64,000 nt of DNA, from the NCBI GenBank assembly GCA_902776305.1, contig CACYPS010000004.1, positions 124,001-188,000 of the forward strand, written 5' to 3'. This document shows positions 14,387-50,511 of the stretch, piece by piece. The stretch comes from an uncultured Lachnospiraceae bacterium (lineage in GTDB: Bacteria; Bacillota; Clostridia; Lachnospirales; Lachnospiraceae). Every line of letters begins with the position of its first letter. The stretch's first letter is position 1. The notes below the pieces were generated by a model. The model was not told where the DNA came from and ran no database searches. It worked only from the letters and a program-made list of their open reading frames with translations. The translations under genes were made by a program, and so were the position numbers.

Positions 14387-14437
14387 GTAACGCAGACTTT
14401 GGCCCAAGTATCATGTAAAAGATAGAAGGAAAAAAAG

Positions 14438-14818: not shown

Positions 14819-14819
14819 C

Positions 14820-16394: not shown

Positions 16395-16413
16395 AGAAAA
16401 CAAGGAGTAACCT

Positions 16414-17907: not shown

Positions 17908-17945
17908 AAGAATCAGAAAATCCTGTATAGATTAGGAGCATTAAC

Positions 17946-19412: not shown

Positions 19413-19413
19413 T

Positions 19414-25752: not shown

Positions 25753-26007
25753 ATGGAAAACCGAATTGCTCTTATCAGCATCATCGTGGAGGATGCGGAA
25801 TCAGTTGAGAAAATCAATTATCTTCTGCACGGCTACGCAGATTATATTATCGGCCGCATGGGAATACCTTATCGCGAGGCCGGAGTGAACCTGATTGCGG
25901 TGGCAATCGATGCGCCGATCGACACGATCAATACGCTGACCGGAAAGCTCGGAAGACTTTCCGGGGTGAGCGCGAAGGCGGCATGTTCAAATGTTCGCAG
26001 GGCATAA
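25753..26007 (+). CDS. TM1266 family putative iron-only hydrogenase regulator
   Basis: An 84-residue protein of the TM1266 family, a small ferredoxin-like (ACT/NikR C-terminal-like) fold commonly encoded beside [FeFe] hydrogenase maturation genes and annotated as an iron-only hydrogenase system regulator. Key segments are MENRIALISIIVED, the ADYIIGRMGIPYREAGVNLI core and the TGKLGRLSGVSAKAACSN end. AAAGGAG precedes the ATG. It lies 108 nt before hydE and marks the start of the nitrogenase-like/hyp cluster. It has no DNA-binding domain of its own, so a regulatory role is not proven. Confidence 0.85.
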   Translation: MENRIALISIIVEDAESVEKINYLLHGYADYIIGRMGIPYREAGVNLIAVAIDAPIDTINTLTGKLGRLSGVSAKAACSNVRRA

Positions 26008-26115
26008 GAAGCCGGGATTACCTGCGATATGGGTGCTAAGCCAAGACGGGGTGTGCAATGTTTAAGAAGCAGGGTTCAGTGTTAAGTAAAGCAGTATACA
26101 CGAGGAGGAATATTC

Positions 26116-27180
26116 ATGCAGGAATTCAGAGAACTGGCAGATAAACTGAACAGAGACAATGACCTTCCGCGTTCTGAGTTTCTCTCCCTGATCGCAATGC
26201 GGAGGAACCTTTCTTCAGAAGACCGCAGCTATCTGTACAGCCTCGCCCGGGCGAAAGCCGACCGGGTCTACGGCAAAAATATTTATCTGCGGGGACTGAT
26301 CGAGTTCACAAACATCTGCCGCAACAATTGCAACTACTGCGGCCTCCGCCGTGACAACCGCAACGTCAATCGCTACCGTCTGTCGAAAGAGCAGATTCTG
26401 GAATGCGCCGACCGCGGTTATGATTTAAACTTCCGGACCATTGTCCTTCAGGGTGGGGAGGATCTGCGATACACCGACGATGACATATGTGAGATCGTTT
26501 CCGGGATCAAGGAGCGGCACCCGGACTGCGCGGTGACGCTTTCCATCGGCGAGAAGAGCCGTGAGAGTTATGAGAGATATTTCAGGGCGGGCGCAGACCG
26601 CTATTTGCTGAGGCATGAGACTGCGAACGAGGAACACTATCGTCATCTTCATCCCGCGGAACTCAGCATGAAAGCCAGAATGGAATGCCTTTATATGCTG
26701 AAGGATATCGGCTATCAGGTAGGGGCGGGCTTTATGGTGGGCTCACCCTTCCAGACAGAGGAGTGCTACGCGGACGACTTTGCTTTTCTGCATAAGCTGC
26801 AGCCGGAGATGATCGGAATCGGACCGTTCATCCCGCATCACGACACTCCGTTCCGTGATATGCCGAGCGGAACGTTGGAAGATACTTTGTTCTTCCTTGC
26901 ACTCCTGAGGATCTCATTTCCTGAGGTTCTGCTTCCGGCGACAACGGCGCTCGGCACGATTCATCCGCTTGGCAGGGAGATGGGAGTCAAGGCGGGTGCA
27001 AATGTCATTATGCCCAACCTCTCCCCGACCGACGTTCGCAAGGACTACCTGCTGTATGACGGTAAGATCTGCACCGGAGACGAGGCTGCCGAGTGCAGGA
27101 AGTGCATGGAGATGAGGATGGAGAACATCGGGTATCACGTGGTCACTTCGAGGGGAGATCACGTGAAGTTTAAAGGTTAA
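26116..27180 (+). CDS. hydE: [FeFe] hydrogenase maturase HydE (radical SAM)
   Basis: A 354-residue radical SAM enzyme with CX3CX2C at C68, C72 and C75. The auxiliary cluster cysteines C319, C327 and C330 have the same 8/3 spacing as in Thermotoga HydE. Other HydE segments are seen (VLQGGED, RHETANEEHY, MVGSPFQT, IGPFIPHHDTPF). HydE converts a cysteine-bound Fe(CO)2CN synthon into a H-cluster precursor. HydG and HydF, its usual partners, are absent from the window; they could lie elsewhere. AGGAGG precedes the ATG. PylB-like relatives exist, but the auxiliary cysteines and the TM1266 neighbour favour HydE. Confidence 0.88.
   Translation: MQEFRELADKLNRDNDLPRSEFLSLIAMRRNLSSEDRSYLYSLARAKADRVYGKNIYLRGLIEFTNICRNNCNYCGLRRDNRNVNRYRLSKEQILECADRGYDLNFRTIVLQGGEDLRYTDDDICEIVSGIKERHPDCAVTLSIGEKSRESYERYFRAGADRYLLRHETANEEHYRHLHPAELSMKARMECLYMLKDIGYQVGAGFMVGSPFQTEECYADDFAFLHKLQPEMIGIGPFIPHHDTPFRDMPSGTLEDTLFFLALLRISFPEVLLPATTALGTIHPLGREMGVKAGANVIMPNLSPTDVRKDYLLYDGKICTGDEAAECRKCMEMRMENIGYHVVTSRGDHVKFKG
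27157..27173 (+). repeat. 17-bp direct repeat flanking the MITE, left
   Basis: GATCACGTGAAGTTTAA here, at the end of hydE, recurs with one mismatch (GATCATGTGAAGTTTAA) at 27446-27462 on the other side of the element. It looks like a target-site duplication. Confidence 0.6.
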
Positions 27181-27445
27181 TTAACTAAAACTTTCCATGA
27201 GTAGTATCTTATCAGTCTCATCATAAAAAAATGCATCGTCGGGACGCTGCACAGCATAAGTTCGATCACGGAAATCGAAGATTTCCTATCTCACTTATTC
27301 CGCTCGGTCTCGCTGGCAGCGGTACTAATAAATTTTCTGCGCTTCCGCTTGAAAATTTAAAGTACCGGCCGCTCGACGACGCCCTTCGATTGCATTTTTA
27401 ATGATTCGACTGTAGCCAAGTATGGATTGGAAAGTTTGAGTTAAA
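27178..27445. mobile_element. MITE-like element, copy 2 (long form)
   Basis: About 268 bp without a coding frame. The left end TTAACTAAAACTTTCCA (27181-27197) is the inverted repeat of the right end, which read on the other strand is TTTAACTCAAACTTTCCA (about 27444-27427). The element shares its right part with 87-218 (inverted) and an inner GGGACGC(T/A)GCAC(A/G)GC(A/G)TAAGTTCGAT segment with 41501-41629. It lies between hydE and the first nitrogenase-like gene and fills the whole gap. Confidence 0.7.
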
Positions 27446-27492
27446 GATCATGTGAAGTTTAAGTAAACTATGTGAAAGAAAGGTGCAAGCGG

Positions 27493-28971
27493 ATGTTAAG
27501 AGACCTGCATTTTCCGGGATCAAAACTGAAAAACGAAGCACAGGGGACTGATCCGGGAATTAGAATTGCCGATGCGAACATAAAGCAGCTGTTTCCGGAA
27601 GGTCTGGTTTATTCCTCGCCTGCCCGCGGAACCTGGACGATCGCCCACACATCGATGTTGATACCCGGCAGCCATCAGATTTTCGTGTGTCCGAGCTGCT
27701 GCCTCAGAGGCGTTGTGCTCTCGGCGGAAGAAATGGGAGCGATGGAGCGCTTCTCGATGCTGGAATTCACGGATGAGCACATCTTGAAGGGCGATCTTGA
27801 GTCGATGATCATAGAGGGCGTCACCGAGATCCTTCTTGAGATGGAGAAAAAACCGACCTGCGTTCTGCTTTATACGAGCTGTGTACAGCATTTCCTGAAT
27901 ATAGATCTGAGTCTGGTCTACCGGGAGTCGGCAGCCCGCTTTCCGGATATTGATTTTATTGACTGCTACATGCTGCCGACAATGCGAAAGCATTTCACAC
28001 CTGAGAAGATGCAGTGGCGCCAGCTGTACAGAGCGGTGCAGCCTCTTCCGGTCAACGAGAAGGCAGTCAACTTTATCGGTTCCTACTATGCGATCGATGC
28101 GGATTGCGAATTATATGATCTGCTCGGGGTTCGGGAAGAAGGGGGAGATGCCGGAACCGGTCGGGATGCCGGGCAGGCTGTGGACTCCGATGCTCTCTCA
28201 GGCGACTCTTCAGGGAAGGCCGGATTCACAGTGAGGCAGCTTCCGACGCTCGAACGGTACGAAGAATACAAATGTATGGGAGAGGCTCTCGCCAACATCT
28301 ATTTTAACCCGGTTATTAAGTTCGCCGCAGATGATATGGAAAAGCGTCTCGGTCAGAAAGGCATATACCTTCCGGCACTGTACGATTTCCGGGAAATTGA
28401 GCGATGTGAACGGTTGCTGACAAAGGAACTCGGAAGACCGATTCCTGACGATGCGAGGGCGTGGTTCGATACTCTTCGGTATGGAGCGGAGGATGCACTT
28501 CTGAAAGCGAAGATGGCAGTCGGGATTCGCGAGATCGCAATTGACGGAGCGGCGGTCACACGTCCTCTCAGCCTGGCGAAGATGCTTTTCAAGCAGGGAT
28601 TCAGGGTGACCCGTGTGTACGCTGATGCATTTCTTCCGGAAGAAACGGAAGACTTCAGATGGCTTGCGATACATGCCCCTGAGATTCGCATTTACCCGAT
28701 GACGGATTCGCGAATGCGAAGAGCAGACAGGAAGCCGGAAGGTCCCGGATTCGTAGCGATCGGTCAGAAAGCCACATATTTTACAGGCACGAGACATTTT
28801 GTGAATCTCGTGGAAAACGGCGGACTTTACGGATTCAGAGGAATCCGGCGCCTCGCGGAGCTGATCGAGGATGCCGCAAAGCATGAGAAAGATCCGGGCA
28901 AGCTTATACAGATCAAGGCGCTCGGGTGTACGGAGAACTGTGCGCGGCTTTCGGCTGTTATGACACCTTAA
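27493..28971 (+). CDS. Nitrogenase component 1-like protein, alpha-type, pair 1
   Basis: A 492-residue member of the nitrogenase component 1 (NifD/NifK/NifE/NifN) superfamily. Candidate cluster ligands are C66, C69 and C70 in VCPSCCLRG (NifD Cys62 region) and C130 in LYTSCVQHFL (NifD Cys154 region), followed by typical FTDEHILKGDLE and domain repeats. A Gly/Asp/Ser-rich linker of about 30 residues (about 205-240) interrupts the middle. The C-terminus has two further cysteines (GCTENC). I chose the ATG at 27493; a GTG 7 codons earlier is in frame. It has no NifD-type FeMo-cofactor motif that I can recognise and pairs with the next gene. Confidence 0.82.
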   Translation: MLRDLHFPGSKLKNEAQGTDPGIRIADANIKQLFPEGLVYSSPARGTWTIAHTSMLIPGSHQIFVCPSCCLRGVVLSAEEMGAMERFSMLEFTDEHILKGDLESMIIEGVTEILLEMEKKPTCVLLYTSCVQHFLNIDLSLVYRESAARFPDIDFIDCYMLPTMRKHFTPEKMQWRQLYRAVQPLPVNEKAVNFIGSYYAIDADCELYDLLGVREEGGDAGTGRDAGQAVDSDALSGDSSGKAGFTVRQLPTLERYEEYKCMGEALANIYFNPVIKFAADDMEKRLGQKGIYLPALYDFREIERCERLLTKELGRPIPDDARAWFDTLRYGAEDALLKAKMAVGIREIAIDGAAVTRPLSLAKMLFKQGFRVTRVYADAFLPEETEDFRWLAIHAPEIRIYPMTDSRMRRADRKPEGPGFVAIGQKATYFTGTRHFVNLVENGGLYGFRGIRRLAELIEDAAKHEKDPGKLIQIKALGCTENCARLSAVMTP

Positions 28972-28986
28972 TGGAGAGATAAGAAC

Positions 28987-30177
28987 ATGAGAATTGTAAA
29001 ACGCGTGCTGTCCACGTATTCGGCCGATAACTTCGGCGTGTGCTCCGCTCTCTACGAGCTCGGCGGTCTGGTGGTCATGCACGACGCATCCGGCTGTAAC
29101 TCCACCTACAACACGCACGACGAACCGCGCTGGTACAACATGGACAGCCTGGTCTTCATATCCGGTCTGACAGAAAAGAACGCGATTTTCGGGAACGATG
29201 ACAAGCTGATTTCGGATCTTGTCACGGCGGCGCACGAGTTCCACCCTCGCTTTATTGCGGTCTGCGGCGGTCCCCTTCCCCATATCATCGGGACGGATTT
29301 CCGGGCGGTCGCGAAAGCGGTCGAGAGGCAGTGCGGAATTCCGACATTCGGATTTCAGACAAACGGCATGGACTCCTATATAAGCGGAGCCGGCCAGGCG
29401 CTGGAGGCTCTTGTCAGCATGATGCCGGAGAGAAAGGACGATACAAATACAGGTTCCGCGAAGGTGAATATTCTGGGAGTGACGCCGCTTGATTTTTCCA
29501 TGAACGGGAGCGTGGAAGAACTGAGAAAACTGCTGGAGAGAAAAGGCTTCAAGGTGGGAAGTACATGGGCGATGGGAGATGACCTCGATCATCTTCTTAA
29601 ATCCGCTGACGCCTCCGTGAATCTCGTAGTCTCGGCGGTCGGACTCAGAGCGGCAGCTGCCATGGAAAAGAAGTTTGGTATACCTTATGTTGTCGGGCTT
29701 CCGGCAGGGAAAAAGGTGACGGAACGAATTGCAGATGAACTCCGAAGGAAGGCGGTATGTGACAGGGAGCACATTGAATATGCCGCAGAATCGCAGAGTC
29801 CTGAACAATGTCAGAACGCCGACATCCTTATTATCGGGGAGCCGGTTCAATCGCTTGCGATTCGGGAAACGCTGAGCGTGTCATTCGGAACGGAACATAC
29901 CCGAATCATCAGCCCCATGCATGGACTGCCGAAGGAAATCATCAGTCTCGGCTGTGAGAAGGTGGAGCTGGAGGACGAGCTCAGAGAGGCGTGTGCCTCT
30001 GCGAAACATGTGATTGCAGACCCGCTCTATGCGAGACTGTTGCCGAATGAGCGGGATAAGTTCATTTTCCTTCCACACGTGGCCTATTCCGGAAGATACT
30101 ACGAGAACGAGGTGCCGATCCTTATTGGGGAACGCCTTGACAGATGGATAGAGAGTGCTATGGCCGGCAATCTGTGA
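28987..30177 (+). CDS. Nitrogenase component 1-like protein, beta-type, pair 1
   Basis: A 396-residue nitrogenase component 1-like protein. Three cysteines correspond in context to the three P-cluster ligands of NifK: C19 (FGVCSALY), C37 (HDASGCNSTY, compare HGSQGC) and C93 (AVCGGPLPHIIGTD). It continues with the usual three-domain fold and ends without the NifK C-terminal arm. GGAGAG lies 8 nt before the ATG and the gap to the preceding gene is 15 nt, so the two proteins probably form one alpha2beta2-like complex. It is far shorter than NifK (about 520). Confidence 0.82.
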   Translation: MRIVKRVLSTYSADNFGVCSALYELGGLVVMHDASGCNSTYNTHDEPRWYNMDSLVFISGLTEKNAIFGNDDKLISDLVTAAHEFHPRFIAVCGGPLPHIIGTDFRAVAKAVERQCGIPTFGFQTNGMDSYISGAGQALEALVSMMPERKDDTNTGSAKVNILGVTPLDFSMNGSVEELRKLLERKGFKVGSTWAMGDDLDHLLKSADASVNLVVSAVGLRAAAAMEKKFGIPYVVGLPAGKKVTERIADELRRKAVCDREHIEYAAESQSPEQCQNADILIIGEPVQSLAIRETLSVSFGTEHTRIISPMHGLPKEIISLGCEKVELEDELREACASAKHVIADPLYARLLPNERDKFIFLPHVAYSGRYYENEVPILIGERLDRWIESAMAGNL

Positions 30178-30180
30178 AGG

Positions 30181-30260
30181 ATATAGTGTTTTCAAAATAT
30201 AGTGTTCTCAAAATATAGTGTTCTCAAAATATAGTGCTTTCAAAATATAGTGCTTTCAAA
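30181..30260 (+). repeat. Five tandem 16-bp repeats before the nifH-like gene
   Basis: Five back-to-back copies of ATATAGTG(T/C)T(T/C)TCAAA; the copies differ only at the two marked positions. The array occupies more than half of the 150-nt gap between the beta-type gene and the nifH-like gene. It could be an array of protein-binding sites or an unstable tandem repeat; spacers are absent, so it is not a CRISPR. Confidence 0.9.
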
Positions 30261-30327
30261 TCAGAATGCTTTTTCGTGAAAAGGATAGATACAACAGAAG
30301 AAAACATCCGAATGGAGATATATAGAT

Positions 30328-31113
30328 ATGAAGAAAATTGCAATTTACGGAAAAGGCGGCATCGGCAAGTCAACGATGACCGGGAATCTGGCAGCTGCCT
30401 TTGCGACGCTCGGTAAGAAAGTCGTTCAGATCGGGTGCGACCCGAAAGCGGATTCCACGATCAATCTGCTTAACGGTGAGCCGCTCATGCCGGTCATGGA
30501 TTATTACAGGGACCATGACATGGAACCGGATTTCGAACACATCGGCAAGACCGGATTCGGCGGTGTTTTCTGCATCGAGACCGGCGGTCCGACCCCGGGT
30601 CTCGGCTGTGCCGGCCGCGGAATTATCGCGACATTCAACCTGCTTGAGGAACTGGATGTATTCGGACGCATCAAACCGGATGTCGTTCTCTATGATGTCC
30701 TGGGTGATGTGGTCTGCGGCGGATTCGCTGCACCGATCCGCGAGGGCTATGCCGAGGATGTTCTCATCGTCACTTCGGGTGAGAAGATGGCTCTCTACGC
30801 AGCCAACAATATTTCCACAGCGGTAAAGAATTTTGAGGACAGAGGCTATGCGACAGTCCGCGGCGTCATCTTCAACCGAAGAAATATTCCGGATGAGGAG
30901 AACAAAGTGAAAGCCTTCGCGGACAGCATCGGAGTTCCGATTGTAGCGGATATTCCGAGGAGCGATGATATCAGTAACTTTGAGGATCAGGGAAAGACTG
31001 TGGTCGAAGGGAACCCGGATCTTCCGGTCAGCAGAAGTTTCATCGAGCTCGCGGAGATGCTGCTCAAGGATCCGCCGAAGGAAGAGAAGGAGACGTATCG
31101 CTTCTATCATTAA
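30328..31113 (+). CDS. NifH-like reductase (nitrogenase iron protein family)
   Basis: A 261-residue NifH/BchL/CfbC-type ATPase. The P-loop is GKGGIGKST (9-17 region), switch regions are present (CDPKADST), and the two cysteines that bind the subunit-bridging [4Fe-4S] cluster are C94 (GLGCAGRG) and C130 ([10 protein letters not shown]). It would pass electrons, driven by ATP, to nitrogenase-like partners. Only one such gene serves the two alpha/beta pairs that flank it. The length is shorter than NifH (about 290) and close to that of group IV homologues. GGAG lies 10 nt before the ATG. Confidence 0.9.
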
Positions 31114-31159
31114 TTGCAGGGAGAAGCCGAACTTGGCTAAATCCGAAAGGAACAGATAT

Positions 31160-32434
31160 ATGGAACCATTTTATCTCACAGCCGCCGAATTTGCCCGGCG
31201 GGGCAGGTCCGATTTTCCGAAGGAAGAATCGCCGTCCCACGCATTGATTTACAGCTCGCCGGCTACATTGTCCTATAATTCACCGGGTGCCAACGGCTAC
31301 GGCGTCAAGCGCGCAGGCCTGGCTATACCCGAGTCCGTCATGCTCCTGGTATCACCGGGCTGTTGCGGGAGGAACAGCACCATATTAAGCAGCGTCAGCG
31401 GTTACAGCGACAGAATGTTCTACCTGCTGATGGATGAGACGGATCTTGTGACCGGACGGCATCTGAAGAAAATCCCGCAGGCGGTCCGCGAAATCGTGGA
31501 AGTGCCGGAGAAAAAGCCTAAGGTCGTGGTCATCTGCATCACCTGCGTGGATGCGCTCCTCGGCACAGACCTTGTTCGCATCTGCAAGAAGGCTGAGCAG
31601 GAGAGCGGGGTACATGTCGTGCCGAGCTACATGTATGCACTTATGCGTGAGGGTACGAAACCGCCTATGACAGCCATCCGTCAGAGCGTATATTCACTTC
31701 TTGAGAAAAGACCTAAGAATCCACATGCGGTCAATCTGCTCGGACAGTTCGCGCCCTACGATGATGACTGTGAGATATATCCCATGTTCCGAAAGGTCGG
31801 GCTCACGAAGATACGTGAAATCGGCCGCATGAAGACGCTGGATGAATATCTGGAAATGGGAGAGGCCAATTTCAATCTGGTCCTGAATCCCGAGACGAGG
31901 TACGCGGCGGATGACCTGATGGAGCGGCTCGGTATGCCGTACATCGAGATGACAAGATTCTACGATCCGGACCGTATTGCGAAACAGTACGCGCTGCTCG
32001 GCGGAGCGCTCGGAGTGAAATTTGATGATACGAAGTGGCATGCGGAAGCGGAAGCGGCTCTTTCGGCGTTCCGCGAAAGACACCCGGAGCTTACATTTGC
32101 AGTCGGACAGACTTTGAACGCGAACCCGTTCGAACTCTCGGCCGCTCTTCTGAAGTTCGGATACCGGGTGGAGAGGATATTTGCAAATGCCTCCCCCGAT
32201 GACCTGCCATTCATTACGCGTATTGCAAATATGAGCCCGGAGACAAGGATTTACACAAGCATCTCTCCGACGATGATGCTTTACAAATGCGAGGGCAGTG
32301 TGGACATTACGCTCGGCAAAGACGCCGCATACTATTATCCGGATGCGGCAAATGTACCGTTCTTCTCAGATGTTCAGCCCTTCGGTTACACGGGACTTAT
32401 GAGATTGCTTCGGGAGATGGAGGAAGTGCTGTGA
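31160..32434 (+). CDS. Nitrogenase component 1-like protein, alpha-type, pair 2
   Basis: A 424-residue component 1-like protein, paralogous to the pair 1 alpha-type protein. The comparable cysteines are C68 and C69 (VSPGCCGRN) and C126 and C129 (ICITCVDALLGTD). The insert seen in the pair 1 protein is absent. The ATG at 31160 has GAAAGGAAC upstream; the frame is open 65 codons further back, but that stretch overlaps the nifH-like gene and is a shadow. It overlaps the next gene by 4 nt, so translation is coupled. Confidence 0.82.
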   Translation: MEPFYLTAAEFARRGRSDFPKEESPSHALIYSSPATLSYNSPGANGYGVKRAGLAIPESVMLLVSPGCCGRNSTILSSVSGYSDRMFYLLMDETDLVTGRHLKKIPQAVREIVEVPEKKPKVVVICITCVDALLGTDLVRICKKAEQESGVHVVPSYMYALMREGTKPPMTAIRQSVYSLLEKRPKNPHAVNLLGQFAPYDDDCEIYPMFRKVGLTKIREIGRMKTLDEYLEMGEANFNLVLNPETRYAADDLMERLGMPYIEMTRFYDPDRIAKQYALLGGALGVKFDDTKWHAEAEAALSAFRERHPELTFAVGQTLNANPFELSAALLKFGYRVERIFANASPDDLPFITRIANMSPETRIYTSISPTMMLYKCEGSVDITLGKDAAYYYPDAANVPFFSDVQPFGYTGLMRLLREMEEVL

Positions 32435-33507
32435 AAGGATTGATGAAATATCTGTCACCGTTCGCGCCGGATATTTCCGGGGCAACGGAGGTACTTTTCA
32501 GGATGAACGGCCTGATCGTCATTATTGATGCGGGCGGATGTACCGGCAATGTGTGCGGTTTTGACGAGCCGAGGTGGAAGACGGAGAGAAGTGCGATCTT
32601 TTCCGCGGGTCTGCGCGATCTTGACGCGATCCTCGGGCGGGACGAGGCTATGATGGGCAAGATCGGGGATGTGCTTCGCCTGATGGGAGACGCGGAGTTC
32701 CTGGCGCTCGTCGGAACGCCGGTTCCGTCCGTCATTGCCACGGACTATCAGGCTCTAAAACGTATGGGACAGAGAAGGTTCGGAATCAGGACGCTCACGA
32801 TTCCGACGACGGGTATGGAACTCTACGATAAGGGGCAGGAGCGGGCCTATATGGAGCTCCTCAGAGAGTATATCCGGGATGAGAATCATGCGAGTGACAG
32901 CTTAGGACAGGTCTCCGGCGAAAATGAGATTTCCGATGAGGCAGACAGGATATGTGCCATGGGAATCTTCGGAGCGACCCCCATGGATCTGCTTGAATCG
33001 GATACGGAGGATATCCTCCGGGAGAGAGTCCTGGGCTGCGGCGGCAGCGATGTCCGCGTGTTCGGACAGGATGTGAAAGACTTTACGGATGCTCCGGGCT
33101 TCCGTGAGAATCTGGTCATATCCCCGTCAGGTCTGGCTCCGGCCAGATACCTGAAAGAACGATACGGCGTGCCTTATGAGGTGCGGTATCCGCTGCCGGA
33201 CAACTATGCCGGATTTCTGCTTGACGTAATGAAAGCGGAAAAGGTCCTGGTAGTCCATCAGGCGGTGCTTGCCGAGACGCTCCGGGCTCAGATAAGCGAA
33301 GCGTACCCTGATGTGATCTGCGACACGGCGACATTTTTCATGCCGTTCGGAGAATCAATAGCTCTTAAGGAGGAGGACGACTTCATTCAGCTGGTCAGGG
33401 ACCGAGACTATGATGTGATCGTCGGCGATCCGCTGCTTGAGCGTGCAGTGCGAGGAAAGCGTTTTGTGCCGCTGCCGCATTTTGCGGTATCCGGCGTTCC
33501 GATGTGA
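32431..33507 (+). CDS. Nitrogenase component 1-like protein, beta-type, pair 2
   Basis: A 358-residue component 1-like protein starting with GTG inside the stop of the previous gene (GTGA overlap), with GGAGG 7 nt upstream. It aligns by eye with the pair 1 beta-type protein (shared DEPRW motif after the second cysteine), but of the three cluster cysteines only the middle one is kept: C37 in DAGGCTGN. The first site reads GATEV and the third reads LVGTPVPS. A further cysteine, C42, is new. The metal site of this pair therefore differs from pair 1. Confidence 0.8.
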   Translation: MKGLMKYLSPFAPDISGATEVLFRMNGLIVIIDAGGCTGNVCGFDEPRWKTERSAIFSAGLRDLDAILGRDEAMMGKIGDVLRLMGDAEFLALVGTPVPSVIATDYQALKRMGQRRFGIRTLTIPTTGMELYDKGQERAYMELLREYIRDENHASDSLGQVSGENEISDEADRICAMGIFGATPMDLLESDTEDILRERVLGCGGSDVRVFGQDVKDFTDAPGFRENLVISPSGLAPARYLKERYGVPYEVRYPLPDNYAGFLLDVMKAEKVLVVHQAVLAETLRAQISEAYPDVICDTATFFMPFGESIALKEEDDFIQLVRDRDYDVIVGDPLLERAVRGKRFVPLPHFAVSGVPM

Positions 33508-33561
33508 TAAGCCCTCTGCATAGTCTGTAGGTGTGGTTAAATCATAGGCAGGTGATAAAAC

Positions 33562-36222
33562 ATGGAAAAATGTTTACAAATTCGTGTATACGGTATCGTT
33601 CAGGGAATCGGATTCCGGCCCTTCGTGAGCAGGCTTGCCGATGAGCTGCAGCTTCGAGGTGACGTCTGTAATAAGGGCTCGTACGTTGAGATCCACGCGC
33701 AGGCAGAGGAATCCGTCCTGGATGAATTCAAGCGTCGCCTTGTCTCGGACGCCCCTGCAGTTTCCGCCATAATCCGGCTCGACGCCGAGGAGATCCGGGA
33801 GATCCCGGATGATTCTGTCGGTGAATTCGTGGGAGACACAGAACAGGTCGAACGGCAAAGATTTCGTATCATAAAGAGTATGCATGAGGCCGGCGAGATA
33901 TTTGTCTCCCCGGATCTTGCGATATGCCCGTCCTGCAGGAGAGAACTTCTCGATCCGCGCGACAGGCGGTATCTGCATCCGTTCATCAACTGTACGGACT
34001 GCGGACCGAGACTCACAATCCTGGATGGGATGCCCTACGACCGCATCAGGACTTCGATGAAAAAGTTTCCGATGTGTCCGGAGTGCGAGTGGGAGTATAC
34101 TCACCCGGAAACCAGACGCTTTCATGCTCAGCCGGTGTGCTGTAATGACTGCGGCCCGTCGGTTTATCTGTACGATCTGAGAGAGCATACAGATGAGGAC
34201 GAAGGAGGAAGCGATTCGACTCACATTACACTGACCGGAGAGGATGAATTCGGTTCCCATCGGGTGACCGCACGAAAAAATGTTGACGGAGGAGATTCAA
34301 CCCTCATCACACTGACCGAAGAGGATGAATTCGGTTCCCATCGGGTGACTGCCCGTAAAACTGCGAGCGGACTCGATGCAATACGCATTGCCCGTCGAAT
34401 CATCAGGGAAGGCGGAGTCATTGCAGTCAAAGGTATCGGAGGGTTTCACCTGTGCTGTGATGCGGCAAATGACGCTGCCGTCAGCCGTCTCCGCAGCCTG
34501 AAACACAGACCGATGAAGCCTTTTGCCGTCATGATGCGGGATATGGAGACCGTAAAGCGCGAATGCGTCGTCCCGGAAGGAGCGGAAAAAATACTGGACG
34601 GCGTTCAGAAGCCGATCCTGATTCTGGATCGACGGACAAGGGGTAAACTCACGGCAAACAGCACGGACGGTAACACGGGCACGCTCCCGGCAGAAGACAG
34701 CATGCCGAGAATCAGCAGCCTCATCGCACCGGATAACGACACGGTCGGGGTCATGCTGCCGTACGCGCCGGTTCAGATCCTGCTCTTTAATTTGCCGGAC
34801 GACGGAGAGATGACGGATACATTTGTCATGACGAGCGGGAATCCGTCGGGTGCGCCTATCTGCCGCAATGATGCACAGGCACTCGAATTTCTCGCGCCGA
34901 TGTGCGATGCGATTCTTTCAAATGACCGCGACATCCTCCTTCGCGCCGATGATTCCGTCATGCAGTGGGCGTTCGGGAAACCGTATATGGTGAGGAGATC
35001 GCGCGGCTATTCGCCGCTTCCTTTCACCGGACCCCGCCACTTCAGGGGAACGGTTCTGGCGATCGGCGGCGAGCTTAAAAACACGTTCTGCCTTGCGAAA
35101 GACGAGCTCTATTATCCGTCGCCGTATGTCGGCGACCTTGCAGATCTCCGCAGCGTCCGAGCAATGGGACAGGGAATAGCAAGGATGGAGGAACTGCTCG
35201 AGATGCAGCCGGAACTTGTCGTATGTGATATGCATCCGCGCTATAATTCGACTGCTTATGCAGAGGAGACAGGTCTTCCCTGCATGAAAATTCAGCATCA
35301 CTATGCGCACGTTCTGTCCTGCATGGCGGAAAACGGAGAGACGGGGCAGGTCATCGGTATTTCGTTCGACGGGACCGGTTACGGTACGGACGGGACGATC
35401 TGGGGCGGCGAATTTCTGCTCTCCGACCCGGAGAAATTCGAGCGGATGGGTTCGATCGCATCTTTCAGGCAGGCGGGCGGTGACCTTGCTTCGACAGAAG
35501 GTTGGCGCGTCGCACTCTCGCTGCTTCTTGACGTATGCGGAAGCGAGGCGGAAGCGGGGGCGGAGGCTGACTTCCTGAACCTGTGCAGTGAACAGGAGAA
35601 GAAGGCGGTTTTCTTCATGCTGAGACGAAATGTGAACACAGTCACTTCGACATCGGCGGGGAGACTTTTTGATGCGGTCAGCGCAATCCTGGGAATTCGC
35701 AGGATATCAACCTTTGAGGGGGAGGCGTCAATCGCTCTCGAGATGGCGGCGAAGAGTTATCTCAGAGAACATCCGGGATACGGAGAGAAGGAAGCGCTTC
35801 AGAGCACCGATTATTCTGACGGCAAAGCCGCGCACTCGAATATGAATGAAAACGGCTTATCTGAAGGTGAAGATTCCCGTTTTCTTTTACCGACAGATGT
35901 TATAATAGGAAAGATCCTGTCCGGAGTACACAGCGGTGAGGAGGCCAGTCGGCTGGCCGCTGACTTTCATATCTATCTTGCGGATGGGATACTGCGAGGC
36001 GCGGAGCGCATGCGTGATATGACCGGCGTTAACGTTGCTGCGCTCTCGGGAGGATGCTTCCAAAATATGCTGCTTGTAAAGCTCTGCAGAGAAAGACTTG
36101 AGGCGGCGGGATTTACCTGCCTTACGCATTCTCTGGTGCCGCCGAATGACGGCGGTATTGCACTGGGCCAGGCCTATGCGGGAATGTGGTACCTGAATGT
36201 AGCACATCCGGATCAAAAATGA
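33562..36222 (+). CDS. hypF: Carbamoyltransferase HypF
   Basis: An 886-residue HypF, which turns carbamoyl phosphate into a carbamoyl group on HypE, the source of CN ligands. The domains are acylphosphatase (about 5-95, VYGIVQGIGFRPFV), two zinc fingers (CPSC...CTDCG and CPEC...CNDCG, about 115-200), YrdC-like (about 270-470, HRPMKPFAVM) and Kae1-like (about 500-880, HHYAHVLS, GISFDGTGYGTDG, LSGGCFQN). Two oddities are seen: a 27-residue tandem duplication between the zinc fingers and the YrdC domain (about 217-267), and a hydrophilic insert near 755-780. At 886 residues it is longer than usual (about 750). Confidence 0.93.
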   Translation: MEKCLQIRVYGIVQGIGFRPFVSRLADELQLRGDVCNKGSYVEIHAQAEESVLDEFKRRLVSDAPAVSAIIRLDAEEIREIPDDSVGEFVGDTEQVERQRFRIIKSMHEAGEIFVSPDLAICPSCRRELLDPRDRRYLHPFINCTDCGPRLTILDGMPYDRIRTSMKKFPMCPECEWEYTHPETRRFHAQPVCCNDCGPSVYLYDLREHTDEDEGGSDSTHITLTGEDEFGSHRVTARKNVDGGDSTLITLTEEDEFGSHRVTARKTASGLDAIRIARRIIREGGVIAVKGIGGFHLCCDAANDAAVSRLRSLKHRPMKPFAVMMRDMETVKRECVVPEGAEKILDGVQKPILILDRRTRGKLTANSTDGNTGTLPAEDSMPRISSLIAPDNDTVGVMLPYAPVQILLFNLPDDGEMTDTFVMTSGNPSGAPICRNDAQALEFLAPMCDAILSNDRDILLRADDSVMQWAFGKPYMVRRSRGYSPLPFTGPRHFRGTVLAIGGELKNTFCLAKDELYYPSPYVGDLADLRSVRAMGQGIARMEELLEMQPELVVCDMHPRYNSTAYAEETGLPCMKIQHHYAHVLSCMAENGETGQVIGISFDGTGYGTDGTIWGGEFLLSDPEKFERMGSIASFRQAGGDLASTEGWRVALSLLLDVCGSEAEAGAEADFLNLCSEQEKKAVFFMLRRNVNTVTSTSAGRLFDAVSAILGIRRISTFEGEASIALEMAAKSYLREHPGYGEKEALQSTDYSDGKAAHSNMNENGLSEGEDSRFLLPTDVIIGKILSGVHSGEEASRLAADFHIYLADGILRGAERMRDMTGVNVAALSGGCFQNMLLVKLCRERLEAAGFTCLTHSLVPPNDGGIALGQAYAGMWYLNVAHPDQK
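34212..34361 (+). repeat. 81-bp tandem duplication inside hypF
   Basis: Two copies of a 69-bp segment (34212-34280 and 34293-34361) start 81 bp apart and both contain GAGGATGAATTCGGTTCCCA. The period of 27 codons keeps the frame; each copy encodes S-T-x-ITLT-x-EDEFGSHRVTARK. Confidence 0.9.
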
Positions 36223-36331
36223 TTGGCGAGACCGCGTGACTACATAAGTGAGACGCTCTTGAATTGGAAAACTTTGAAAAGATTCCTTAGACTTAAGCGG
36301 GAATGTGGATAGATAAGAGGAGGAAACAAAA

Positions 36332-36544
36332 ATGTGTGTAGGACTTCCGGCAAAAGTAGTACAGATGAAAAACGGAACGGCAATTGTGGACGCTACGGGT
36401 GCCCGTCGTGAGATCTCGACAGAGCTGCTTGAAGACGTCGAGCCCGGTGATTATGTCATGGTGCACGCCGGCATTGCGATCGCTAAGATCACGGCTGACG
36501 ACCAGACGGAGACACAGGAGCTGATGCAGGGACTGATGTCCTGA
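36332..36544 (+). CDS. hypC: Hydrogenase assembly chaperone HypC
   Basis: A 70-residue HypC/HybG protein starting MCVGLPAKV, with the essential Cys2 that holds the iron of the Fe(CN)2CO unit together with HypD. The C-terminal half has the usual GDYVMVHAGIAI. AGAGGAGG precedes the ATG. It is the normal partner of the following hypD. No hydrogenase large subunit, the usual receiver of the HypC-bound iron, is present in the window. Confidence 0.95.
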   Translation: MCVGLPAKVVQMKNGTAIVDATGARREISTELLEDVEPGDYVMVHAGIAIAKITADDQTETQELMQGLMS

Positions 36545-36577
36545 ACATCGCGGGCAGGAAACGAGGAGGATTGATTT

Positions 36578-37618
36578 ATGAGTGCGGAAAAAACAGCCGC
36601 GGAGATCGTACAGGCTTACGATGGTCGGCCGATACGCGTGATGGAGGTGTGCGGCACGCACACACATGCAATATTTGAACACGGAATCCGGAATATGCTG
36701 CCGGATAATATACAGCTCATTTCCGGTCCGGGATGTCCCGTGTGTGTTACGGAGACCGGATTCATCGACGAGGCGGTGTGGCTTGCGCTTGAGAAGAACG
36801 TGACGATCACGACTTTCGGCGATCTGGTGCGCATCCCGGGAACGGAAATGTCCCTTGCGGGGGCCAGAGCGAAGGGTGCAAAAATCAGGATCGTTTACTC
36901 GCCGCTGGACGCAGTGAATTACGCTTCAGAGCACCCGGAGACAAATGTCGTCTTTCTCTCGGTCGGCTTCGAGACGACTGTTCCCGCGGCATGTCTTGCA
37001 GTAAAACGTGCGATGGAACTGGGGATTCGCAACTTCTCGCTTCTGACAGCGAACAAGACGATGGACAGGGCTTACCGTGTGCTGAAAGGGAGTGCGGACG
37101 CATTCCTGTATCCCGGTCACGTCAGCGCCGTAACAGGTATGAAAATTTATGAGGAGCTGAAGAATGAGGGGATTTCCGGTGTCGTGTGCGGTTTCACCGC
37201 GGGAGAAATTCTGACAGCCCTCGCAATGATTGTGAAGAAAATCGGCAGTGGAGAACCGTTCGCTGAAAATGCATATACGCGCGTCGTGACGGAAGAAGGC
37301 ATGCCGATCGGCAGAAAGCTGATCGAGGAGATCATGGAGCCGTGTGAGGCGGCATGGCGCGGAATCGGTGTGATCGAGGGATCCGGACTGAAGCTCAGGG
37401 AGAAGTATGCGGCCTGCGACGCCCGTCTGGTCTATGACATGCCGGAGATCCAGGGCAGACCGAATCCGGCGTGCCGCTGCGGGGATGTCCTGATGGGACG
37501 CATAAAACCGTATGAATGTCCGCTGTTCGGAAAGGTATGTACGACGGAGCATCCGGTCGGTGCGTGTATGGTATCGTCCGAGGGAACCTGTTCGGCATAC
37601 TATAAATACAATATTTGA
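36578..37618 (+). CDS. hypD: Hydrogenase maturation protein HypD
   Basis: A 346-residue HypD, the Fe-S scaffold on which the Fe(CN)2CO unit is assembled with HypC. Signatures are MEVCGTHTHAIF, SGPGCPVCVT (redox cysteines) and the C-terminal cysteine set (CRCGDVLMG, YECPLFG, CTTEHPVGACMVSSEGTC) for the [4Fe-4S] cluster. CGAGGAGG precedes the ATG. It follows hypC by 33 nt. The next gene, hypE, is separated by 188 nt that hold a dispersed repeat. Confidence 0.95.
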   Translation: MSAEKTAAEIVQAYDGRPIRVMEVCGTHTHAIFEHGIRNMLPDNIQLISGPGCPVCVTETGFIDEAVWLALEKNVTITTFGDLVRIPGTEMSLAGARAKGAKIRIVYSPLDAVNYASEHPETNVVFLSVGFETTVPAACLAVKRAMELGIRNFSLLTANKTMDRAYRVLKGSADAFLYPGHVSAVTGMKIYEELKNEGISGVVCGFTAGEILTALAMIVKKIGSGEPFAENAYTRVVTEEGMPIGRKLIEEIMEPCEAAWRGIGVIEGSGLKLREKYAACDARLVYDMPEIQGRPNPACRCGDVLMGRIKPYECPLFGKVCTTEHPVGACMVSSEGTCSAYYKYNI

Positions 37619-37659
37619 GGTTCCGGAAAATTCCGAATACGCTATGTCAATGTGATTGT

Positions 37660-37752
37660 TACGCATGCTTAGGCTCGGCGGATCGCAGACGTGCGCAGTG
37701 GAAGGCGCTTACGCGCAACGCATGTCGCGGCAAAAACGCCGAGGCGTTCTTG
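37660..37752 (+). repeat. Dispersed GC-rich multi-hairpin repeat, copy 4
   Basis: It matches 3901-4012 from ACGCATGCTTAGGC to GAGGCGTTCTTGG. It separates hypD from hypE. Confidence 0.75.
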
Positions 37753-37806
37753 GATATTCGTATATAATTTGTAATTTGCTGAAAAACATCCTCGAAAGGA
37801 GTAAAA

Positions 37807-38811
37807 ATGGATGAATTTATAACACTTGCCCATGGTTCCGGCGGCAGAAAAACCTCGGAACTCATCGGCAGCATGTTCAAAAAATACTTTGAAAATGATT
37901 ATCTCACCGCAGACGATGCCGCCGTCCTTCCGGCTCCGACCGGAAAGATCGCGATGTCCACCGACGGCTTCATTGTCTCACCTTATGAATTCCCGGGCGG
38001 AAATGTAGGTAAGCTCAGTATCTGCGGAACCGTCAACGATCTGGCATGTATGGGCGCTAAGCCGCTTTATCTTACGTGTGCATTTGTCATTGAGGAAGGT
38101 TTTCCGGTAAATAAGCTCGAGGAAATCGTCGCAGCTATGGCGAAGACCGCCCGGGAAGCGGGGATCTGTATCGTTGCAGGCGACACCAAGGTGGCGGGCA
38201 AAGGACAGGTCGATGGTCTCTTCATAACGACGACCGGTGTGGGGCAGATCGTGGAAGGAGTTGAGACCTCGGGGGCATTTGCAAGACCGGGTGATAAGAT
38301 CATTGTAACCGGAGACGTTGGTCGTCACGGTACGACCATCCTTCTTGCGCGCGATGAGTACGGAATAGAGGCGAATGTTACCAGTGACTGTGCGCCGCTC
38401 TGGGGAACGGTAGAATCGATGATCGGGGTCACGAAGGATCTCCACGTTATCCGCGACGCCACGCGCGGAGGCGTCGGAACAGTGCTATATGAAATCGCGG
38501 AAGAGAGCCGGGTAGGAATCCGTCTTGAGAGATCTGCAATTCCGGTCCAGCCGGCAGTCTCCGGTGTATGCGGAATGCTGGGGCTTGAGCCGCTTTATCT
38601 CGCATGCGAGGGAAGGCTGGTAATATTTGCTCCGGCGGATAAGGCGGATGAACTCGTGAGTGTTCTTCGGAAAGGTAAGTATTCTGCGGATGCGGCTGTG
38701 ATCGGAGAGGTTACGGAAGACATGCCCGGACGCGTCAGAGTCCGTACGGCAATCGGTTCGGAGACGCTGCTTCCGCCGCCGGGCGGGGAGCTTCTGCCGA
38801 GAATATGCTGA
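37807..38811 (+). CDS. hypE: Hydrogenase maturation protein HypE
   Basis: A 334-residue HypE of the PurM/AIR synthase fold. It dehydrates the carbamoyl group on its C-terminal cysteine to a thiocyanate that becomes the CN ligand. The end, LLPRIC, has the required Cys334. The N-terminal GSGGRKTSELI and the DATRGGVGTVLYE ATP segments are intact. GAAAGGAG precedes the ATG. It is the last gene of the cluster and is followed by a long hairpin. hypA and hypB, the nickel insertion genes, are absent here. Confidence 0.95.
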   Translation: MDEFITLAHGSGGRKTSELIGSMFKKYFENDYLTADDAAVLPAPTGKIAMSTDGFIVSPYEFPGGNVGKLSICGTVNDLACMGAKPLYLTCAFVIEEGFPVNKLEEIVAAMAKTAREAGICIVAGDTKVAGKGQVDGLFITTTGVGQIVEGVETSGAFARPGDKIIVTGDVGRHGTTILLARDEYGIEANVTSDCAPLWGTVESMIGVTKDLHVIRDATRGGVGTVLYEIAEESRVGIRLERSAIPVQPAVSGVCGMLGLEPLYLACEGRLVIFAPADKADELVSVLRKGKYSADAAVIGEVTEDMPGRVRVRTAIGSETLLPPPGGELLPRIC

Positions 38812-39030: not shown

Positions 39031-39108
39031 GCCTCAGCTCCACAATGCTCCACTGGAGCATGCTTAGGCACGGCGGATCGCATACGTGCGCAGTGCGACA
39101 GCTCTTAT
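39031..39108 (+). repeat. Composite repeat: partial GC-rich copy 5 plus GCGACAG end
   Basis: GAGCATGCTTAGGCACGGCG and the GATCGCATACGTGCGCAGTG that follows match the first half of the 3901/37660 family. The sequence then switches to GCGACAGCTCTTA, the right stem end of the long-hairpin family. It lies at the 3' end of the DUF2974 gene. Confidence 0.6.
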
Positions 39109-41438
39109 GATGCGTCTTTGTTTTTGCTGCGCACGATGCGGTGCATCTCGCTGAATACCAGCGCCATACCCATCAGCATCAGAAAACTTCCGATTGTCAG
39201 CGATTTTCCTGAATAGATCTTCGACGGAGCTGCGATGGAAAAAACGCCGAGCAGCGCGAAGAGGACTGAAATCAGGATGATTATGATTTTACCCGCTGTG
39301 GTCTCCGTGATTGAGAGGGATCTCCGGAAGAATTTTTCAGCAAGCCACAGGAAGAGAATTCCTACAATAATATTTTCCACGAACGGAATAAAAGACGGGT
39401 GGCATGCGATGAACATCACGACCAGAAGCGGCGCCAGGAGGAACAGAACCTTTGCCTGCCGTTCCGAGGCGGGCATTTCTTTTCCGCAAATACTGAATAT
39501 ACTCCAGGTAAGCCATGAAATCGCACCGACAGCAGCAGTATATCCGATGATGTGGTAGGAGGCGTCCGGCAAAATAAGGAAGACGAAACCCAGACACAGC
39601 ATGGAAATGCCCGCAATTCCTGTTCTTGTCGTTAATATGTCGTTTGGCCGAAGCTGACGGACGTGTGTTGCGACTTGCTTTAACAGCTTGCCCAGTACGA
39701 TTTTGGTCTGACTCTCCACATTGACAAGGGAGTAGAGAATCGTTCCGAATCCTCCGAGACCGCTCTTCGCGATGTCGTCGAGCGTCTCGGCCTTACCTGC
39801 CCGGAGCGCGTCGAAGAAATCTTCCGTGAATGTTTCGCGGTCCTCCATATCTGCGGATTCGATCCACTCATCAAAAATCTTCTTATATTCTATGCATTCC
39901 GGTGAGAGTTCTTTTTTTCTGATAAATGTGTTTCCCTCGATCTGCCAGGTAAAAGCATTGTGCTGCAGAATGCCGGAACCGCTGCTCGCAACAATCGTAG
40001 CCGGAACCGGCGGTTCAAAGAGCATTCCCACGACAGAAAACTCGGGTATGAATCTTTTCATCACAGCGAGGGCTTCGCTGTAGCCTTTTTCCTGACGGAA
40101 TTCAGGGCAGATTCCGGGACCGTCCGCGTTGTAAATCTCTATAACTCTGTCGCGGTAAGCGTCCGGCAGCATCATTGCGGCATAGAGCGCGAGGTTGGCG
40201 CCTTTTGAGTGACCGCCGATTCGCAATTTCTTATCAGTGGTAAGTATTTCGTTGAGAAGATAGTTGAGCGCCATCTTCTGAGCGGGCGTCTCCCGGAAGC
40301 TGATCATGAAGTCCTGTCTCCAGTCCTCGATCTCATCACCGGTTCCCCTGTAAGAAATATAACGTGTGCCGTCCGGCAGATCGATGCACAGAGCGGAGAA
40401 GAGCAGGTTCTCCTCCTCGTCCTCGACGCTCACATAGTCCGAGAGTATGAGATTTCCGAAGCGCTCGGATTTCCCCATCTCCTTGAGGAGAGCGCGGCAT
40501 GGTTCGGGATAGGGGGTCGCAAAGCCGGTATCTTCCTTTAGGCATTTTTCGGCTGCCTCCCGCAGTGTCTGGGGTCTTGCCGGTTCCTGAGCGGCAGTTT
40601 CCGGAGCGTCATCAGGGTTTTCGGGAGAAGAGCCGTCAGCTTCCGCAGGATCTGCGGTGAGTTCAGCAGAAGGAGTGTCAGCGTCCGGAGCGTCAGCGAC
40701 GGATTCAGCAGAAGGAGTGTCAGCGTCCTGAGTTTCAGCAATGGGTTCAGCAGAAGGAATGTCAGCGTCCTGAGCGTCAGCAGCGACCTCAGTCGGTGAA
40801 CACTCAACATCGGCAGCATCGGCGTCTTCCTGAGAAGAGTTGCCTGCAAAGGCTTCAGAAGAAGGAATATCAGCGCCCGGAGCTTCTGCAATGAGCGCCG
40901 AAGAAGGAGTGTCAGCATCCGGAGCAACTGCACTGTGCGCAACAGATGTACTGTCGGTACTCGGAGCAACAGCTGCTTGAAGAGAAGTAATATCCGCGTC
41001 CGAAGAGGTATTTGAGTTTGCCTGCCCGGAATCGCACTCTTTTACAGAGGAGTACCCGGGCAGGTCCTCTGCTTTCAGGGTTGCGACAGTCAGTATGTTG
41101 TCAACCGTCTGTTCGCAAATCTCTCTGAAGGCATTGTCGATCAGCTCTGCTGTGTTGACATCATCCGTATCGGGCACAAGAAAATCGGAGTCATCAGGGA
41201 TTGGCTCCTCGTACCATTCTATCTCGGAAAGTTTTTTGGTTTCCTCCGGAATTTTTTCCGGAGCATCAGTTCCCTTGGCTTTTTTGATTGCCTCCGCATC
41301 TATGTACGGCGGTGAAATGATATTCGTGAAACGGGTATAGGAGAGCATAGCAAGTGCAAGACCGTCCACCTCATTGTAGGGGTGTTCGGCAAATGTTCCG
41401 TCTCCCCGCCATTTTAAATAAGAAATTAAATCGCCCAT
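39105..41438 (-). CDS. DUF2974/Mbeg1-like lipase-fold membrane protein
   Basis: A 777-residue protein. Residues about 1-125 and 290-560 form the DUF2974 (Mbeg1-like) alpha/beta hydrolase region with the nucleophile elbow GGHSKGANLALYAAM. Between them, about 150-290 is a low-complexity linker of near 14-residue repeats (DADTPSAESVADAP type). The C-terminal 600-777 has about five membrane spans. The substrate is unknown; the fold suggests lipid or ester hydrolysis at the membrane. AGAGGT precedes the ATG. The stop codon lies in a dispersed repeat. Confidence 0.8.
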   Translation of the reverse strand: MGDLISYLKWRGDGTFAEHPYNEVDGLALAMLSYTRFTNIISPPYIDAEAIKKAKGTDAPEKIPEETKKLSEIEWYEEPIPDDSDFLVPDTDDVNTAELIDNAFREICEQTVDNILTVATLKAEDLPGYSSVKECDSGQANSNTSSDADITSLQAAVAPSTDSTSVAHSAVAPDADTPSSALIAEAPGADIPSSEAFAGNSSQEDADAADVECSPTEVAADAQDADIPSAEPIAETQDADTPSAESVADAPDADTPSAELTADPAEADGSSPENPDDAPETAAQEPARPQTLREAAEKCLKEDTGFATPYPEPCRALLKEMGKSERFGNLILSDYVSVEDEEENLLFSALCIDLPDGTRYISYRGTGDEIEDWRQDFMISFRETPAQKMALNYLLNEILTTDKKLRIGGHSKGANLALYAAMMLPDAYRDRVIEIYNADGPGICPEFRQEKGYSEALAVMKRFIPEFSVVGMLFEPPVPATIVASSGSGILQHNAFTWQIEGNTFIRKKELSPECIEYKKIFDEWIESADMEDRETFTEDFFDALRAGKAETLDDIAKSGLGGFGTILYSLVNVESQTKIVLGKLLKQVATHVRQLRPNDILTTRTGIAGISMLCLGFVFLILPDASYHIIGYTAAVGAISWLTWSIFSICGKEMPASERQAKVLFLLAPLLVVMFIACHPSFIPFVENIIVGILFLWLAEKFFRRSLSITETTAGKIIIILISVLFALLGVFSIAAPSKIYSGKSLTIGSFLMLMGMALVFSEMHRIVRSKNKDAS
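40620..40962 (-). repeat. Degenerate 42-bp minisatellite in the DUF2974 gene
   Basis: The best units, of 14 codons each, read DADIPSAEPIAETQ, DADTPSAESVADAP and DADTPSAELTADPA. More diverged units lie upstream in the gene. The period stays in frame. Confidence 0.75.
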
Positions 41439-46227: not shown

Positions 46228-46351
46228 GAACAATGCACTATTGTGGCGGAGTGCCGTTATTATTGTGCCCTTTTTTGGGAAGACCGCAAAATAACGCACG
46301 TAGGGACGCCTTGCACAATAAATATATAGAAATTACGGGGTGAAACGTCGA

Positions 46352-50269: not shown

Positions 50270-50511
50270 TCCTGCCGGCAGGCAGCTATTCAAAGCGAAG
50301 ACGGTCAGGACCGTCCTGCGCTTACCTCATATTTGCACGAATCTTATGAGATCCGATTAAAACTTGTCACACAGAGAACCGGAGGATGCCGCGGGAGACC
50401 GCAGGGGCATGCTCCGGAACATGTGATTTACCAGCAAACCGCACTTTACAGTGCATGGATTGCAAATAATAGCTACGTATCCCGTCAACCGGTTATATAT
50501 GGGAGGCATAT

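Follow-up and report, generated by a model that had tools for sequence, protein, structure and literature searches.

Likely HydG-free route to the [FeFe]-hydrogenase H-cluster encoded by a nitrogenase-like, HydE and HypCDEF gene cluster of an uncultured Lachnospiraceae bacterium

Why would a bacterium join two nitrogenase-like protein pairs to the maturation enzymes of two kinds of hydrogenase in a gene cluster that contains no hydrogenase? The question is raised by positions 25753-38811 of a 64,000-nucleotide stretch of DNA from an uncultured Lachnospiraceae bacterium (GenBank assembly GCA_902776305.1, contig CACYPS010000004.1, positions 124,001 to 188,000; hereafter the window). Family profile searches identified there, on the + strand, the gene order TM1266-HydE-D1-K1-H-D2-K2-HypF-C-D-E, in which D and K denote the alpha-like and beta-like nitrogenase component 1 proteins of pairs 1 and 2 and H a NifH-like reductase (four PF00148 domains and one PF00142 domain in all). 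Every gene that an earlier note on this DNA had named is present, in the order and on the single strand that it gave. We consider it likely that the cluster encodes a HydG-free pathway for the diiron portion of the active site of [FeFe] hydrogenases (the H-cluster), which carries carbon monoxide (CO) and cyanide (CN) ligands, with HypCDEF and the nitrogenase-like complexes supplying the Fe-CO-CN synthon of HydE. This judgement weighs together two claims of different strength: that the genes specify a HydG-free route of H-cluster maturation, which is very likely, and that the exact chemistry is a remodelling of ligands by the pairs, which we propose tentatively and regard as somewhat doubtful. 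No biological source other than HydG is known for the CO and CN that [FeFe] hydrogenases carry as ligands.

The probable clients of the cluster are [FeFe] hydrogenases whose genes lie in other parts of the genome. Three PF02906 matches lie outside the cluster, and one of them is a group A6 NADH-dependent [FeFe] hydrogenase (840.2 bits; cut-off 765) whose translation has the L1-L3 cysteine motifs. HydF is also encoded elsewhere (G000:C16; 535.7 bits, cut-off 325.55), and the HydE of the cluster (26116-27180, +), a radical S-adenosylmethionine (SAM) maturase with a CxxxCxxC motif at residue 68 (TIGR03956 559.9 bits; cut-off 254.6), is the only HydE match of the host genome at E 1e-60 or better. 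In this 97.4% complete genome the sole match to the HydG model was HydE itself, at 54.2 bits against a cut-off of 312.15, and the [NiFe] large subunit (PF00374) had no match. The absence of hydrogenase genes claimed in the earlier note therefore holds for the cluster and for the [NiFe] type, and fails for the genome as a whole.

The distribution of the genes across the class carries the gene-level claim. Six profiles were run against 283 genomes of the class, the host included, for which a completeness of at least 95% had been requested. Strong D1 matches (460 bits or more) were found in 16 genomes; four genomes that scored 314-353 bits and five that scored lower were counted separately. HydG was counted at its family cut-off, which excluded 14 sub-cut-off genomes of the 188 with a match and left 174; HydE was found in 191 genomes, HydA (E 1e-60) in 260, HypD in 58 and the [NiFe] large subunit (E 1e-10) in 47. 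All 16 strong-D1 genomes carried HydE and HydA and none carried HydG over the cut-off, compared to 174 of 283 overall. Conversely, D1 was present in 16 of the 20 genomes with HydE and no HydG, and a strong D1 in none of the 171 that had both maturases (Fisher 6e-20, kinship not corrected). The D1 genomes span eight families, seven of which also have HydG genomes, and a single genus (g56) includes six genomes with D1 and no HydG and three with HydG and no D1. The Hyp genes follow a matching pattern: HypD was found in all 47 [NiFe] genomes, and the 11 HypD genomes without a [NiFe] large subunit are exactly the 11 with both D1 and D2. D2 was recognized here as a second match to the D1 profile, at 156.8-202.1 bits, with HypD in that genome as confirmation. 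Because the D1 genomes all have HydE and HydA and lack HydG, and because orphan HypD coincides with possession of both pairs, we read the cluster as a replacement for HydG. The survey thus supports the earlier proposal of a nitrogenase-fold system for an iron centre with CN and CO ligands and sharpens it, most likely to the [FeFe] H-cluster. It also shows that genomes with such clusters do not lack hydrogenases, as that note had proposed to check, since [FeFe]-type genes accompany strong D1 in 16 of 16 cases; nor are these hyp genes always partnered by the hydrogenases that they usually serve, as none of the 11 both-pair genomes has a [NiFe] large subunit.

Two further observations concern the maturases in the class. 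HydG occurred without HydE in three genomes (G054, G101 and G124), and at least 69 of the 283 genomes had a PF02906 match of the [FeFe]-hydrogenase type (E 1e-60 or better) and no HydE at E 1e-60.

The genes that surround D1 in relatives point in the same direction. We retrieved D1 loci from the best 80 of 441 relatives, many of them on short contigs. Four close relatives (L007, L010, L011 and L015) have the same gene order as far as the retrieved DNA extends and, together with the co-occurrence in the class, this conserved order rules out chance adjacency and bears out the conserved association that the earlier note had proposed to look for. The retrieved DNA included HydE in 36 of the 80 loci, HydF in 24, TM1266 in 43 and aspA, a gene reported near hyd operons (PMC11736057), in three. 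In the class set, a single run at locus L105 reads HydA-H-D2-K2-HypF-C-D-E-TM1266-D1-K1-HydF-HydE, and L101 brings together HydE, HydF, TM1266, HypFCDE and both pairs. The canonical HydG loci that we retrieved have the order TM1266-HydE-HydG (L093) or HydG-HydF (L092), so in L101 and L105 the place of HydG in the operon is taken by the Hyp and nitrogenase-like genes. The system therefore resembles HydEFG maturation in keeping HydE and HydF, with TM1266 and sometimes aspA close by and HydA-type clients whose H-cluster motifs were intact in all those checked (five fetched D1 genomes and L105), and differs from it in having no HydG. In the window, the TM1266-family putative regulator of the iron-only hydrogenase system heads the cluster (25753-26007, +; TIGR03959 107.2 bits, cut-off 60.8; PF21699 104.9 bits).

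What, then, do the Hyp proteins contribute? All four exceed their NCBIfam cut-offs and the cysteines expected of them are in place, as in the maturation of [NiFe] hydrogenases: HypF, the carbamoyltransferase (33562-36222, +; TIGR00143 692 bits, cut-off 466.1), has five of five HypF domains, HypC (36332-36544, +; TIGR00074 74.3 bits, cut-off 48) has the N-terminal cysteine in MCVG, HypD (36578-37618, +; TIGR00075 384.4 bits, cut-off 192.8) has CGTH and HypE (37807-38811, +; TIGR02124 415.8 bits, cut-off 251.6) ends in a cysteine (PRIC). Because these HypC, HypD and HypE motifs are present, the Fe(CN)2CO chemistry of HypCDEF should be intact. Unlike the [NiFe] system, neither the host nor the 10 other both-pair genomes have a [NiFe] large subunit, and HypD forms a lineage of its own. 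In a tree with 35 [NiFe]-linked HypD proteins, chosen from the 47 genomes with a [NiFe] large subunit, the 33 HypD proteins of what we call module B, this one included, made up one clade (support 1.0), and the consensus of the two groups differed at columns 173, 175, 200, 215 and 253. HydE behaved differently. We compared 45 HydE genes of D1 genomes with 47 taken from the 171 HydE and HydG genomes, plus two from genomes with neither HydG nor D1; the two main groups were intermixed in the tree, and no column had a different consensus above 70% in both. No specialization of HydE was thus found in D1 genomes, which suggests that HydE receives its usual substrate there. By this reasoning the Hyp and nitrogenase-like part would replace the product of HydG rather than the chemistry of HydE.

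The nitrogenase-like proteins reach the cut-off of no characterized family whose model was applied. We placed the pairs by scoring them with NCBIfam models for NifDK, NifEN, DPOR, COR and CfbCD, by searching the PDB with their sequences and by comparing folds. D1 (27472-28971, +), K1 (28987-30177, +; PF00148 119 bits), D2 (31160-32434, +) and K2 (about 32443-33507, +, within a longer open reading frame at 32287-33507; PF00148 31.5 bits, cut-off 28.6) reached no NCBIfam cut-off of a characterized family, as the earlier note had anticipated when it could match their gene content to none of the nitrogenase-like systems that it named. They share with NifEN and NifDK the PF00148 fold and a top NCBIfam match to NifE for K1 (76.9 bits) and D2 (72.1 bits), yet both fall far short of the NifE cut-off of 505.1. 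At E 0.001 or better, the single match of D1 was to the NifEN fusion model (5e-4), and K2 had none; K2 also retrieved no nitrogenase chain in the PDB sequence search, its kinship to K1 being apparent from profile comparison (E 3.1e-129). Against NifDK the best scores were those of K1 (NifD 65.1 bits, cut-off 653.55; NifK 37.9, cut-off 427.3). The proteins share the superfamily with dark-operative protochlorophyllide oxidoreductase (DPOR; BchLNB/ChlLNB), chlorophyllide oxidoreductase (COR; BchXYZ), CfbCD and methylthio-alkane reductase (MarHDK) but differ from DPOR, COR and CfbCD in lying below the BchB/N/L/X/Y/Z and CfbC/D cut-offs where listed (at best BchL 205 bits against 345.15, BchX 192.2 against 331.2, BchB 60.5 against 490.35, BchY 22.7 against 425.15 and CfbD 33 against 268.4), and from all four in having two D-K pairs with Hyp and HydE partners. 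H (30328-31113, +; PF00142 291.6 bits) similarly remained below every listed nitrogenase-family cut-off (for example, CfbC 300 bits against 402 and NifH 296.2 against 394.35). Roles in nitrogen fixation or as a chlorophyll or F430 reductase were ruled out, because no family cut-off was reached. A reference search in class genomes (10 open reading frames scanned, L175-L179) also returned nitrogenase-like proteins that were all below every cut-off.

Conserved cysteines indicate what the pairs may bind. Pair 1 has D1 C73 (89 of 99 sequences), C77 and C137 (99 of 99) together with K1 C37 (95 of 96), and D1 C486 is also conserved; pair 2 has D2 C69 and C129 (36 of 36) and C126 (31 of 36) together with K2 C33 (48 of 48), the D1 and D2 alignments including a few cross-matched sequences. 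Each pair therefore combines three such cysteines of its D subunit with one of its K subunit, a putative [4Fe-4S] site whose pattern is found in NifEN and DPOR alike. From D1 residue 138 to 485, the span in which we take the cysteine ligand of the FeMo-cofactor to be expected in an alpha subunit, no column had cysteine at 85% or more, and for this reason we regard D1 as lacking a ligand of the FeMo-cofactor type. H keeps its P-loop and conserved cysteines, including C94 and C130, and probably serves both pairs. In two relatives D2 and K2 are apparently fused as a single open frame (L020, 5449-7971, -, 840 residues; L065, 2728-5190, 820 residues).

These features suggest the following sequence of events. 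HypF and HypE, given their family roles and the expected cysteines, would make cyanide from carbamoyl phosphate and hand it to HypC and HypD, on which Fe(CN)2CO would be assembled. H, predicted to be an ATP-driven [4Fe-4S] iron-sulfur reductase, would pass low-potential electrons to D2-K2 and D1-K1. In the weakest step of the scheme, the Hyp-linked D2-K2 pair and then D1-K1 may reduce and remodel the iron unit and exchange one CN for CO, yielding an Fe(CO)2(CN)-type synthon, which would be what HydG normally supplies. HydE could then use the synthon in its usual way, and HydF would load the [FeFe] hydrogenases whose genes lie outside the cluster.

Two variants keep the pathway and assign the pairs another task, and we judge both unlikely. 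In one, the task of the pairs is confined to making CO, with reduction of CO2 as one possible source, and HypCDEF provides cyanide and iron with no ligand exchange on the pairs. Reduction of CO2 to CO is a known reaction of the nitrogenase family, and Fe(CN)2CO has fewer CO ligands per iron than the H-cluster needs; this variant fits the same co-occurrence data, yet leaves unexplained why two distinct pairs are retained and why D1-K1 stands without Hyp proteins beside an importer in other genomes (see below). In the other, equally improbable, the pairs are scaffolds like NifEN, on which an iron unit or the diiron cluster itself is built and reduced before HydE or HydF takes over. The 3+1 cysteines of both pairs, as in NifEN and DPOR, are consistent with such a role, and so is the rank of NifE models or chains (NCBIfam and PDB), which come first or near the top among the sequence matches of K1, D1 and D2, although far under the family cut-off. 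Fold comparison is blind to the distinction: D1 and D2 tied with DPOR and were near methylthio-alkane reductase (9d9u, 9fmg), with top rows within about 1-2 Z units, so that NifEN-like, DPOR-like and nitrogenase-like chains were not separated. An unspecialized HydE, on the other hand, suggests the usual mononuclear substrate rather than one prebuilt on a scaffold.

The HydG-free pathway appears to come in two forms. Near D1, at least part of the H-D2-K2-Hyp block was found in 27 of the 80 loci and at least one FecCD-type importer or binding protein in 44, never both together; eight of the nine loci with neither had less than 7.5 kb of DNA upstream or less than 8 kb downstream. On a D1 tree from which four D2-like tips had been removed, these labels switched about five times (shuffled mean 28.6, minimum 20), which amounts to a handful of independent switches and not 71. 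The importer-type strong-D1 genomes of the class set had HypD in none of five cases, and in Intestinibacter bartlettii a FecE-type ATPase carries a fused C-terminal TM1266 domain (L041, 7998-9092). Two TM1266-like stretches were also seen in 21 of the 80 loci and are perhaps the same fusion, which was verified in L041 only. We hypothesize that Hyp block and importer stand for synthesis and uptake of a precursor. Since the two are never together near D1, switch about five times, leave the importer genomes without HypD and include the FecE-TM1266 fusion, one could go further and imagine a hybrid [NiFe]/nitrogenase machinery making the Fe-CO-CN block of the H-cluster as an exportable, vitamin-like iron compound that is shared, with makers (H-D2-K2-HypFCDE) and takers (FecCD-type importer) both finishing through H-D1-K1, HydE and HydF; we offer this as speculation, with rather low confidence.

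Several observations weigh against a HydG-free pathway of this kind. Kinship among the surveyed genomes means that the counts do not represent independent events, and four of the 20 genomes with HydE and no HydG (G053, G127, G222 and G257) also lack a strong D1. HydA was near D1 in none of the 80 loci and in one of 20 class regions. When we looked for HydG outside the class set, in 50 genomes of the 80 D1 loci that were picked for long contigs and named strains and are of unstated completeness, it accompanied D1 in four (two Intestinibacter bartlettii strains, L027, L064), all of the importer type; HydG over the cut-off was found in none of the 23 block-type genomes among them. Since HypD is missing from the Fec-type D1 genomes (five of five in the class set), the pathway does not account for the CN and CO in them, and the exchange of CN for CO by the pairs is a reaction proposed on chemical grounds. 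Further, four loci (L111-L114) have H-D-K, a binding protein and FecCD/FecE with no HydE or HydF adjoining and D1-like proteins of 314-353 bits; three are in HydG genomes and one is in a genome that lacks HydA. Of the 171 genomes with HydE and HydG, three (G059, G088 and G119) have a D1-like match in this weaker range, at 346-353 bits. Because such weak D1-like/Fec systems occur without HydE or HydF, the nitrogenase-like fold is not exclusive to the H-cluster, and L111-L114 perhaps represent an older type of reductase that acts on an iron complex and is linked to its uptake. These systems without adjoining hydrogenase maturases, and the four D1 genomes that keep HydG, favor another explanation, in which the product of the cluster is some other Fe-CN/CO cofactor, required by an unknown enzyme, the loss of HydG is coincidental and the hydrogenases are matured otherwise. 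We consider this highly improbable, given the presence of D1 in 16 of 20 HydE genomes without HydG versus none of 171 with it, across eight families of which seven also have HydG members, and the operons shared with HydE, HydF, TM1266 and, once, HydA.

An independent report supports the HydG-free reading. A 2022 survey of eight acetogens describes HydE and HydF in all eight and HydG, by known motifs, in three, with HypCDEF in all and HypAB in three, so that five species have HypCDEF without HypAB (PMC9431212). The survey gives no firm explanation and suggests an atypical HydG-like protein or the uptake of stray CO and CN, which counts against our interpretation; it does not connect the missing HydG with the orphan HypCDEF, and the word nitrogenase appears in it once, in a reference title. 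That HydG is replaced by a radical SAM protein of a diverged HydG-like or ThiH-like kind, with the cluster unrelated to H-cluster ligands, is barely credible: the article reports a gene of this kind for every acetogen it covers except one, and five of the 16 D1 genomes, like 13 of the 46 HydG-less genomes among the 50, had HydG-model matches below the cut-off, yet 11 of the 16, the host among them, had no such match at E 1e-40, the sole match of the host was HydE, and orphan HypCDEF would be left unexplained. Our profile search found no HydG over the cut-off in Clostridium carboxidivorans P7, C. ljungdahlii or C. ragsdalei, each of which has both modules (L044, L053 and L068). Of these, C. ljungdahlii is a laboratory organism and not a pathogen. 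Among the literature matches listed from open PubMed Central papers, we found none that links nitrogenase-like genes to [FeFe] maturation without HydG.

Other features of the window complete the picture. The gap between hydE and D1 holds a 264-bp insert (27181-27444) with 17-nt ends TTAACTMAAACTTTCCA in inverted orientation, bounded by 18-nt direct repeats (27156-27173 and 27445-27462). The close relative L007 lacks this insert, which resembles a small element of the miniature inverted-repeat transposable element (MITE) type. Promoter and terminator scans gave no signal above chance level. Upstream, positions 13442-21516 encode a series of Mrp/Mbh-type antiporter subunits (MnhB/MbhE-like, four Proton_antipo_M proteins), which is probably a cation/proton antiporter because no [NiFe] large subunit was detected in the genome. 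Downstream are an Mbeg1-like protein (39105-41438, -) and rpoB/rpoC (within 46340-54240).

If the HydG-free pathway is correct, it would be a second route to the ligands of the H-cluster, one that unites HydEF, Hyp and nitrogenase-like cofactor systems, and it would add a new reaction to the nitrogenase superfamily. It would also explain how [FeFe] hydrogenases persist without HydG in industrial acetogens such as C. ljungdahlii and in many gut-derived genomes.

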